The position numbers and the translations under genes were made by a program. From NCBI GenBank assembly GCA_036925085.1, contig JAUPFP010000003.1, positions 3,339,001 to 3,403,000 of the forward strand: a stretch of DNA of 64,000 bases. Reading direction: 5' to 3'. Shown here piece after piece: positions 39,301 through 51,738 of this stretch (position 1 is its first letter; every line of letters begins with the position of its first letter). The DNA is from Brachycybe producta (taxonomy: Eukaryota > Arthropoda > Diplopoda > Playtdesmida > Andrognathidae). Under the pieces are notes generated by a model. The model ran no database searches and was not told the origin of the DNA. It saw only the letters and a list, made by a program, of their open reading frames with translations.

Positions 39301-42300
39301 CGTGATGCCAATAAAAATGTCAATCAAATAATCATAGTGACATTGAAGCCTATAATCTTTGTTGAAACTGTCAATCAAATATTTATCACAATAGAAACGC
39401 AAAAAGACAGCTACTGTAACATTATGACAAAATTTAAATTGTTTTCAAAACTAGAATGGTAAAAGATTATATTAAAAAAGTTTTTGAAAAATGATCAGTT
39501 TTTAGGGTTTTTTCATTGAAATTTCATGAAAAACTATTTTCGGCCTTTTTTTTCTTTTCAAATTGCCATAAAAAGTTTATTTTGAAAGATATCATCATGA
39601 AAATACCAATTAAGTGATCGAACTACCCTTCTAGATTCTAAATAAAGTGGTTTTTGAACAAATAAAACTTTTAGCATTATCGCCAACTATTCTAGTTTCT
39701 AAAACACTTTGAATTTTTTCGTAATGTTTCTTCTGAAAAACGTTCGCTTGAACGTTCCCTTGTGGGAGGAATAGATATTCCTCCTATAGAACATAATAGC
39801 AAGAGCGCCATTCGGGGAGATGAAAACAAAATAGAATACCTAAAAAGCCACCTTAATTCCTATTATTTAGATTTCTATTTAAATTATTCGTCTTAAGAGG
39901 GCTCCATAGAAACAAAATACTTGCGTAAACATGCAAGGTAGATGGCGCCTGCAACCTCCAATAGGTACAGGCAATTAGAAATCGGGACAAACAGAAGTTG
40001 GCTCCGCCCTTTTTATGACGACTGGCAACTTCTAATTGGTTTGTTGTGTGGTTCGACGTTGAAAAGGGCGGAGCATGTGACGTCAGACTACATAACCAAC
40101 CAATTAGAAGTTGATTTCGCCACAAAAAAGGGCGGTGCCAACTGAAGTTCGTCACGATTTCTAAATGCCTGTCCAATAGGTGGCCAACTACACTCGCCGC
40201 CAATTACTTGAAATCGAATGCAGCCTCATTTTAGCTCTAAAAGCGTCCAAAACAACCTTAATTATCAGAGCACGTGGACAAACGTACACCCAGAACATAA
40301 GTGAAGATAGAGAGAGCACGTGTAGAAATAGCGATGACGCAATTAAAAGTTTGCCACGTGCGTTCTTAATTTGCATAATTATTGTTATAATTAAAAAAAA
40401 ACCCTTTTTTTTTGTTTTACCCTCGCATCAAGTAGCAAGTTGTCCGGTTTGATATCTCTATGAATGAAACCCAATTTATGAATGGAATCGATGGCTAGAG
40501 CCGTTTCCGTGATGTAGAACTGAGTACAATCTTCGGACAGAGTGTCCTTCTTCATGAGGAGCGTCATCATGTCACCACCCGGAAGGAACTCCATTATGAG
40601 GTACAGATTAATAGGATCCTGAAAGGAATAATACATCTTGACCACCCACTGGTGATCGGCTTCGACGAGAACGTCTCGCTCGGCCCTCACGTGGGCCACC
40701 TAAGAAAAACATACGAAACAGGTTAAAAGTGTTAAAAAGTGCCAGGTTCTCTCTCGTACTCTCTCGAAACGAGAGATACGACGACTTAACACCTGTTCTT
40801 TCTCGAGCATGTCCGCCTTCCTGAGGATCTTCATCGCGTACACGTGACCCGTGTCCTTCTTCTGAACGAGGCGCACTTCTCCGAACGCTCCTCGTCCGAT
40901 CACTTTGAGCGGATCGAAGTCTTCGACTCCTAATCGAGAACGTTTCAGCCTTAGGAACTCCGTCTCTTTAACGGCGTGTTGCTGTCGCTTCTCTTGTTTC
41001 TGAGATTCGCTCAAACCTTCTTCTCGCATTGACTCTTCGAGTCTTTGATATCTGAAAACGAAAAAATAATTAAAATAAATCTTAAGGTTTTTTTTCCTAT
41101 TTTCGTTTTTTTTTTTTTTTCAAAACTGTCACATAAAACGTTTATTTTGAACTATATCGTCATAAAAACTTTTAGCATTATCACCAACTATTCTAGTTTC
41201 TAAAACACTTGAATTGTTTTTCGTAATGCTTCTGCAAAAAATTATTCTTGAAAAATATAAATTTGCTCAAAACCGTATTAGTGGCGCCATCTGAGAGGAC
41301 AAAAAACAAAACAAATATTTATAAAGCCATCTTAAAGTTGAAACCATACCCTCTGAATCTTTGAAGTGCTAAAAGTAACTTCTTGAATTTGGGCCGGTTG
41401 ATTAAGATGGCAAATTAAACGTTTAAGAATTGCAATTAGATCATTTATTTTGTGCGTGTAGCGTTAGATGGCGCCACTAGCCCTCCTATCATAGAAATGT
41501 ACTGCAAACACTCTTCAACTCTGAATCACCTTCCTTTTTTTTTTGCACGTGGCAAGCTTTTAATTTGCGTCATCGCTATTTTTCTACACGTGCTCTCTTC
41601 ACTTATGTTTTGAGTATACGTTTGCCACGTGCTCTGATGATTAAGGTTGTTTTGGATGCTTTTACAGCTAAAAGGGTGCATTCCATTTCAACTAATTGGC
41701 GACGAGTGTAGTTTGCCACCTAAAGCCTCGTTTTCATGGCGATAGTTCTATCGTGAGAGTAGCTGTCATGAAAGTTGCGATAGTTCACTCTCACGATAAG
41801 CAACTGTCTACATGTCTTGAAATAAGGGAGATAGTTCTGTCACATGACAGTGTGACACGTCTAACTTCACAGATATCATTGAGTCAACAACAGTGTTGCC
41901 TCTCCATCTCCCTCCAGAAGCCAAATTTCCCTACAAAGTGGATATTTTTCCCTACAAAGCGGCGGTCACTCAACAACTATTACTATATTGCGACAGTACT
42001 ATTCAACTATACTGTATAATCAAACGAGATAGTTGTGATAGTTGCTATCGTAACAGTGCGATAGTGACTATCATGTGGTCTTCACGATGATAGTTCTCGC
42101 GATAGTTGCTGCTCTCATGATAGCAACTATCGTGGAAACTATCATCGTGAAAACGGAGCTTAAGGAGGTTGCATGATGCCATCTACCATGCATTTACGAA
42201 AGTATTTTTCTATGGAGCTCTCTTAACTCAGTTGAGTATGAAAACGTACCGAGAGCACAAAAAACTTTCTCAAAAGAAGGAAGTTTTTAACCTCATAAAA

Positions 42301-45300
42301 ATAGCGGACCTTTCGAGTTAAGAGGTCATTAATATAAAACACAATAGAACAATATTGTGGTTGAGGAAAAGAATAAGAAAATTGCAATTTGAACGCACGT
42401 AAGAAGAAGAAGAAAACCCCCCCAAAATCACCTCAAGATATTCAGAAAAAAAATAAACAAAGGATTTGAATAAGATCAAAGTTTTGACGACTTTAGGTCA
42501 TTCAAGGTCTAAGCCACACCTCCCGCCCATTGTTTAACATCGACTGACTCTTCACTCTCACCTATCCTCATTACCACCCTTCAAAATACCACCCACTTTT
42601 ACATTCAAAAAAAGGACAATGACCTCTGTAAACTGGATTCGACTTGAAAAGTGACATGACGTCATATTTCAGGCAAATCATTGAGCGTACCAAAATGGCG
42701 TATATCTTAATAAAACAGTAGAACAAAACGCCATATTAGTGCTCCCCCTTCATCTCTTATTTCTCCGTGCTTCAATAATGTAGCTACTGGTTTATTTAAT
42801 CGTACACCTTATTTTTTTCTTGATTTTCAAAACAACAAACAAAAAACAACACGTGTTTTGCTGTTTTTAAGGTCATTGATTGTGACAAGTTTGGTTGCTA
42901 CTGGCAACGAGATTTCATCATCCGTACAGAGGGTTAATTTTTCAGCATCCGTAACGTCCACAAGGAATACGCAATCAACTTTATGAGTTATTTCAACGTT
43001 AAAGAATTACAATTTAAAAAAGTGGAAGCCATGGAAGTCACGAAAATTCGTATTAAAAGAATTTCAATGCTATTTTAAGTGACTAGACCGATCATATATT
43101 TTGTGATATCCGTTTTCGTGTTAAAAACAACAGTTTAGAACTGTGCTAAAAACTAGAAGCGTAATGCCTAGTACACACACCTGCTAATTTAAATGCATTT
43201 AAATGCAATAAACGTGTTCTACAGAGCCCTGTGAAGGACAAACAATATGTCTTCGAATTCAATTTATTCAGTTAATTAATCTGAAAATATTGAGTTAATA
43301 CTTAAATATAATTCAATAAACTATTGACATTAAAATATTGATTTAGTATTTCTATTTAAAAAATTAATAATAAAAGTCAATTTTTATTTGGTGTTCATGT
43401 CCTTAACTGGATTCCGTATAATTCACACTAAACACATTTAATTTGAATTCATTTAACTCATGTGTTGTGTACAAGGTATAAGTGAATAATGCTTTTTATG
43501 TTGATATCTTTGGTTTATGAACAGCTGATTTTCGAAAAATAAATTTCAAATTGTTTTCAAAACTAGAAGGGTAAAACATTGTGCTAGAAGTTTTTCATGG
43601 CAGTCAGTATGTTAAAAAATAAATAAATAATTTTAAAGTTCCCTTTTTTTTCAAACTTGTCATAAAAAGTTTATTTTGAAAGATATCAATCATGAAAATA
43701 CTTTTAGCATTATCACCAACTATTCTAGTTTCTAAAACAGTTGGAATTTTTTCGTCATGTTTCTTCTGAAAAATGTTCGCTTGAAAAATACAAATTTTCT
43801 CTCAAAAACCGCACGTGGAGGAGGAAGAGTCCCTTCACAAGCATTTAGAAATCGGGAAGAACTTCAGTTGGCTCCGCCCTTTTTATGACGACCGGCAACT
43901 TCTGATTGGTTAGTTGTGTGGTTCGACGTTGAAAAGGGCGGAGCATGTGACGTCAGACTACATAACCAACCAATTAGAAGTTGCCGGTCGTCATAAAAAG
44001 GGCGGAGCCAACCGAAGTTCTTCCCGATTTCTAAATGCCTGTGAGACACTCTTATAGAACATAATGGGTACTTTCAGTGGCGCCATCTGGGAAGAACAAA
44101 AGTAAAATAAACATCTATTCAGCCACCCAAAAAGAAAGTAGAAAGAAAGCACTGAAAAGCACAAAAATAAATGGTTTACTGCATAGAATAATAATCATCA
44201 TAAAAATTCCACAATGACAAACGATGAATTTCTTCCGGACAAAAAAGATAGAGAGAAAAAGTGTCAGTGACACTGAAGAAGGAGAGAGAGAGAGAGAAAG
44301 AGAAATAGTCATAAAAAAATAACAAGAAATGAGTCGCGGTCCGTTACACACGACCAACAATAATGATGATGACAAGAACCCCTTGGTGTGTACCTATTAT
44401 TAGTCACATACAAGCAGCGATGAGTCGATATCTATCTAGCAAACATATGCGGATAACGCATACGGTTTAAACGGATGCGACAACATCCGAATGCGAACTT
44501 CACGCGCCATTGCGCATTCTAGTGACTAGTCTCAATGTCGCGCCCCTAGATATCTACACGCAGTTAGAAATAAGAACTTCAATTGGCTCCGCCCTTGTTA
44601 TAACGACCGGCAACTTCTAATTGGTTGGTTATGTATGTAGTCTAACGTCACTTGGTTCTTTTGATTTATTGGTTTTTTTCGATTTTTCTTTCGATATTTT
44701 TCGATTTTTTTTCCGATTTGTTTCGATATTTCGATTTTTTTCGATATTCCGATTTTTTTTTCCGATTTGTTTCGATATTTCGATTTTTAGATTTTTCAAT
44801 TTTTCTCGATTTTTTTTAGATTTTTTAATTTTTCTCGATTTTTTTTTTAGATTTTTCAATTTTTCTCGATTTTTTTTTTTTTAGATTTTTCAATTTTTCT
44901 CGATATTTTTTTTTTTTTAGATTTTTCAATTTTTCTCGATATTTTTTTTTTTTAGATTTTTCAATTTTTCTCAATTTTTTTTAGATTTTTCAATTTTTCT
45001 CGATTTTTTTTAGATTTTTCAATTTTTCTCAATTTTTTTTTTGGTTTTTCAATTTTTCTTGATTTTTTTAGATTTTTCTTAGATTTTTCAATTTTTCTCG
45101 ATTTTTAATTTTTCAATTTTTCTCGAGTTTTTTAGATTTTTCAATTTTTCTCGATTTTTTTTAGATTTTTCAATTTTTCTCAATTTTTTTTTGGTTTTTC
45201 AATTTTTCTTGATTTTTTTAGATTTTTCTTAGATTTTTCAATTTTTCTCGATTTTTTTTAATTTTTCAATTTTTCTCGATTTTTTTAGATTTTTCAATTT

Positions 45301-51396: not shown

Positions 51397-51416
51397 CAGT
51401 AATGGTCTCTTGTAGA

Positions 51417-51738
51417 ATGCAAGTAGATCATTTATTTTGTCCGTGTAGCGTCAGATGGCGTCACTAGCCCTCCTCCCATAGAACTGTGCTAACACTCACC
51501 TTAATTGCGTCATCGCTATTTCTCTACACGTGCGCTTTCTCTCTCTCTCTCTCTCTTTCTTCACTTATATTATGCTTCTGGGTATAAGTTTGTCCACGTG
51601 CTCTGATCATTAAGGTTGTTTTGGACGCTTTTAGAGGCTAAAAGGAGGCTGCATTCGAAGAGTGTAGTTGGCCACCTATGGAGGTGTTGCAGGCGCCATC
51701 TACCTTGCATTTTACACAAGTATTTTTCTATAGAGCCT
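51417..51738 (+). mobile_element. Family D element, uninterrupted copy
   Basis: TTATTTTGTCCGTGTAGCGT, CAGATGGCGTCACTAGCCCT, CACGTGCTCTGATCATTAAG, GTAGTTGGCCACCTATGGAG and GGCGCCATCTACCTTGCATT, ending CTATAGAGCC. It contains the empty site corresponding to both insertions found in the other two D copies. Confidence 0.75.

Follow-up and report, generated by a model that had tools for sequence, protein, structure and literature searches.

The window (the whole 64,000-nucleotide stretch analysed here, part of contig C3 of the 295-Mb genome of Brachycybe producta) contains three copies of a repeat, element D. Copy 1, on the minus strand at 39893..40360, is split into pieces 39893-39966 and 40176-40360 by a family A fold-back MITE (39967..40172, plus strand), which lies between two plus-strand copies of the target duplication CCAATAGGT, at 39958..39966 and 40173..40181; positions 1-101 of the D consensus were not found in this copy. 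Copy 2 (41423..42226, plus strand) is split into 41423-41722 and 42161-42226 by a 437-bp Harbinger-like element, H (41724..42160, plus strand), with TAA on either side (41721-41723 and 42161-42163). Copy 3 (51414..51738, plus strand) is without interruption and retains the empty site GGCCACCTATGGAGGTG at 51670..51686 on the same strand. An open reading frame adjoining copy 1 has STK38/NDR kinase as its best match, and copies 1 and 2 therefore probably lie within introns of an STK38/NDR kinase-like gene.

A preliminary description of this DNA had reported the three D copies, the two insertions with their coordinates, both duplications and the empty site, all of them correctly, and its comparison of filled and empty copies does fix both target duplications in the window sequence. 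Its count of three applies to the window, the genome holding far more copies (see below). It had also assigned both transposons to the same 9-bp target. With both put on a common strand, the target of A reads GGCC[ACCTATTGG]AGGTTGC and H interrupts CACC[TAA]GGAGG; the two targets overlap, but they are not an identical 9 bp. Two insertions by themselves are weak evidence for a preferred site, and the claim rests on genome-wide counts.

Element D is a MITE-like repeat. Its core, TGATAATTAAGGTTGTTTTGGACGC, has at least 995 matches in the genome with up to 3 mismatches, against zero for the reversed control. Alignment of 26 full-length copies gave a 360-bp consensus that starts with TTAAGAATGCAAG and whose last bases, CTCTTAA, were taken from the copies and appended. 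The consensus opens with TTAAG and CTCTTAA closes many copies, and TTAA may be the target duplication of D, as in a TTAA-type MITE. The site of interest reads GTGTAGTTGGCCACCTATGGAGGTTGCAGGCGCCATCTACC in the consensus, and its length varies among empty copies. Among the copies fetched, copy-to-copy length variation at consensus positions ~228-250 and 290-305 is far above that of the other eight intervals measured. Among individual copies, two D elements adjoin in the same orientation at locus L025 (1361-1699 and 1801-2128), and at L034 (~1724-1841) D is replaced or interrupted by another short sequence of ~115 bp in the interval that corresponds to positions 220-245 of the window copy.

Family A is a fold-back element of ~206 bp with termini ACAGGCAATTAG; the genome has 16,288 matches to its 11-base end pattern, against 354 for the reversed pattern. 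A 9/9 duplication is present in 15 of the 43 A copies that were tabulated together with flanking sequence (CTCTTCAAC, CACTTTAAC and GGTTATAAG are examples), while in many others 3-6 of the 9 duplicated bases match. Target duplications of Mutator-like MITEs are about 9 bp long (8-11 bp). Those of A measure 8-9 bp, with 8 bp at L115 and L116, and on duplication length A may tentatively be labelled a Mutator-like MITE. Muta1, a Mutator-like element of Aedes aegypti, likewise makes 8- or 9-bp duplications, as outlined in PMC5225508, where it is described as having little or no target sequence preference, unlike A in D.

The frequency of A insertions along D was estimated from a sample and from junction searches. 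The sample comprised the 70 earliest in contig order among 100 listed of the 995 core places, all perfect matches; leaving out L092, which is copy 1 of the window, gave 69 perfect-core D copies from contigs C1-C6 only. A occupies the site in four of these (L069, L085, L091 and L093) and another position in D in one (L079, consensus 88-91), so that 4/5 insertions fall within 10 of 335 bp (P 4e-6). At L093, D could not be recognised on the right side of A within the stretch fetched. The remaining interruptions among the 69 copies, which were not placed as insertions, are truncations, deletions, repeat-length changes or one-sided loss of D with no second piece.

For the junction search, GTGTAGTT followed by up to 61 bases and then A's end was sought throughout the genome. 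Of the 32 matches, 21 lie in D and 11 outside it, D identity in this and the control searches having been judged by eye, with one doubtful case on C64 near the site and one on C78 in a control. Two junctions on C59 resemble one duplicated event, which leaves 20 A insertions in D. Nine of them sit at the identical base, directly after TATGG or TATTGG, and another six from 2 bases before it to 3 after, giving 15/20 within 6 bp, a span chosen after the data were seen; the other five occupy different positions in the stretch. With the discovery copy excluded, 8/19 insertions at one of 61 positions correspond to P about 3e-10. The control anchor GTTTTGGACGC gave 12 matches, 11 of them at scattered positions in D, two of these together at TTTTAGAG; GATGGCGCCACT gave 38, with 7 or 8 in D; and TTGCGTCATCGC, in a genome-wide pattern of equal reach, gave zero. 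When corrected for the share of intact anchors in the 69 perfect-core copies, extended to 995 cores, the density is 3.67 events per bp in the 6-bp site and 0.13 in the rest of its stretch, compared with 0.18, 0.20 and 0 in the other three D stretches; anchor GTTTTGGACGC is intact in 69/69 by construction, which understates its density. By rough arithmetic, the single base is hit ~100-fold more often than other D positions.

The suspected preference for this spot is thus borne out for family A by comparison with three other D anchors, and the even spread over D that would have spoken against it was not found in the searches at four anchors. The genome-wide hotspot is real, and it concerns one transposon only, A. 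It is most improbable that insertion is even and that hits at this base merely survive or are recognised better. The sample did require the core to be intact, so that hits within the core are left out, and every junction search required an exact anchor; but the searches used one short anchor each, with equal reach, at four places, and selection or detection would hardly give a one-base peak in a non-coding repeat. A second, weaker cluster of A lies near CTCTTCAAC at D consensus 85-95, with 4/7 sure D junctions of the GATGGCGCCACT search; its members are L079 and places on C5, C9 and C67.

The motif TATGG directly precedes A's end 27 times genome-wide, 8 of these being D-site junctions. The other 19, some of which may be D copies lacking the exact anchor, represent a mild excess over the 7 expected from window composition. 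With both the anchor and TAT(T)GG kept in 37/69 sampled copies, D sites of this kind would number about 534, of which roughly 1.5% hold A, compared with about 7.5e-5 of other TATGG sites. By this rough arithmetic TATGG is hit ~200-fold more often in the D site than elsewhere, and because it is hit so much less often outside D, the preference of A must read beyond TATGG.

Whether the filled sites represent separate events was addressed in an independence test (INDEPENDENCE) on eleven junctions fetched with both sides. A lies one way in six and the other way in four, the shortened copy at L113 remaining without assignment. Duplications are 9/9 at L109, L111 and L117 and 8/8 at L115 and L116, and imperfect or shorter in the others of the eleven (imperfect at L112, L114, L118 and L119, the last having lost D to the right of A); among the sampled copies they are imperfect at L069, L085 and L091. 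Five site copies were known when a first tree, of 44 A copies, was built, and they need 5 changes there. A second tree, of 55, requires 13 for 16 site copies, with L113 taken as one of them, and a single origin appears in 0/200 bootstrap trees. Shuffling the labels on the 55-copy tree gives 14.0 changes on average, with 145/500 shuffles as low as the observed value. A tree built from 72 left parts of D, the bootstrap of which did not settle, requires 5 changes for 5 filled copies.

Judged by orientation, duplications, D variants and trees, the A insertions at the site look independent. A very improbable alternative is that A entered a single D copy once and that the composite was then amplified, so that the filled sites are its descendants. 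The identical base in many copies would be explained in this way, and rice offers a precedent, with 107 elements carrying one MITE at the same site, interpreted as a single event (as summarised in PMC3903597); two pairs of site copies are also sisters in the A tree, L109 and L118 with support 98/85, and L111 and the window copy with support 93/86. However, the window copy and L111 have opposite A orientations relative to D, A occurs in both orientations overall, and the duplications differ in sequence and length. The number of changes required in the A and D trees and the lack of any single-origin bootstrap tree also oppose amplification, and site copies are no more clustered than shuffled labels in either tree. 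Amplification of a composite is thus already largely refuted. Copies that share a nested insertion at one and the same base need not share ancestry. We consider it probable, at about 0.85, that D carries a one-base-sharp hotspot for A, with many independent insertions between ...GCCACCTATGG and AGGTTGC.

Element H is itself a repeat family, with 1801 first-look candidates, of which 40 were scored and most proved 87-92% alike over nearly their full length. PIF/Harbinger MITEs duplicate a 3-bp target, TWA. TAA flanks the window copy of H on both sides. The exact H end pattern after the site anchor, a search that can miss diverged copies, has 2 matches genome-wide, the window copy and one outside D, which also has TAA before the H end. 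The idea of an insertion preference shared by two unrelated transposons consequently survives for A and not for the pair, H having been met at the D site once with this exact pattern. As far as seen, the site is an A hotspot plus one further H event, and the insertion in copy 2 would have happened separately, at a TAA that was available.

The preliminary description had proposed an exposed loop or unpaired centre of D as the attraction. The single-strand fold predicted from the D consensus pairs CTATGGAGG (295-303) with the left arm (62-71) and leaves positions 290-294 unpaired, so the duplicated bases would straddle the stem border with the insertion point in the stem. The unpaired 290-294 agree with the proposal and the position of the insertion point does not; the evidence of the predicted fold for a loop is mixed. 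It is unlikely that open or structurally unusual DNA at the spot draws transposons of any kind. Such DNA would account for two unrelated elements meeting there in the window, for the unpaired left part of the duplicated bases and for the variable length of empty copies at the site, but the H pattern searched for occurs there a single time in the genome, the predicted stem contains the insertion point, and the left-arm partner CCTCCCATAG is without any A junction of the GATGGCGCCACT search.

Two simpler determinants were rejected as sole causes. For a palindrome, 18 other A targets display no clear complementary excess (largest 8 vs 4.8 expected), and the site scores 1/8 at the 9-bp centre and 4/8 one base on, where the D maximum is 6. 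For a local base preference, the site ranks 8 and 12 of 340 D windows under a weak target matrix derived from 16 other A targets, one of these itself in D. Excision footprints were considered as well. The modal length of the empty site accounts for 31% of 55 copies, but the GGACGC..GCATTC interval is more variable (22% of 73) and has no comparable hotspot, and footprints are therefore not demonstrated; eight other intervals are 56-100% modal.

We infer that the clustering arises from target choice by A's transposase. As a non-autonomous fold-back element, A would be moved by a transposase unseen here, inserting in both orientations at the hotspot base, with duplication of 8 or 9 bp on the left of that base. 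This transposase may recognise a longer D sequence directly, or may be recruited by something bound to D. A more specific version, which we regard as speculative and rather improbable, is that D serves as a docking signal: A would be guided there by a D-bound protein beside the base, or by its transposase if this reads a long D sequence. A MITE of weak average preference would in this way become site-specific inside another MITE, and the length variation of empty sites would be a record of past insertion and excision.

Site-specific nesting of MITEs is a known phenomenon. In rice and maize, MITEs occur inside other MITEs, sometimes at specific sites (Jiang and Wessler 2001, as cited in PMC1925063 and PMC3903597). 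A in D resembles these cases as a MITE within a MITE at a specific site, with many independent insertions at one position, but it concerns an animal genome, an element with 9-bp duplications, and a one-base peak accompanied by counts at other host positions. A beta-amylase intron in which Stowaway elements have repeatedly inserted at one site, as summarised in PMC1925063, is comparable in that independent insertions at one spot were argued from diverse elements and polyphyly; that case concerns one gene across species, and the present one a single repeat family within one genome. The target motifs of TIR and LTR elements in Drosophila are palindromic and reach past the duplication (PMC3276498), a feature not evident for A, and nested plant LTR elements have a weak palindrome preference (PMC6911290). 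Among the titles and abstract openings listed in searches of the literature, no animal MITE-in-MITE hotspot appeared, which is no claim of its absence from print. The A-in-D hotspot is a new, sharp example of site-specific MITE nesting, and its hundreds of comparable targets, of which a minority are filled, constitute a natural experiment on the determinants of target choice, base by base.

Further repeats were noticed during the analysis. Family E (GATGGCGCCACTGCAGTGGC..., L022 ~2160-2390) has the GATGGCGCCACT motif in common with D. Many A insertions lie in E, some of them coinciding to the base in its palindrome GCCACTGCAGTGGC; of about 30 found in the GATGGCGCCACT search, one base has 3 and a second base has 2, too few to call. 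The window also contains a tandem array of an 11-bp unit (AACCAACTCTC) at 49611-49982, with 33.8 copies and 100% matches, and a TA dinucleotide array of about 161 copies at 31942-32265.
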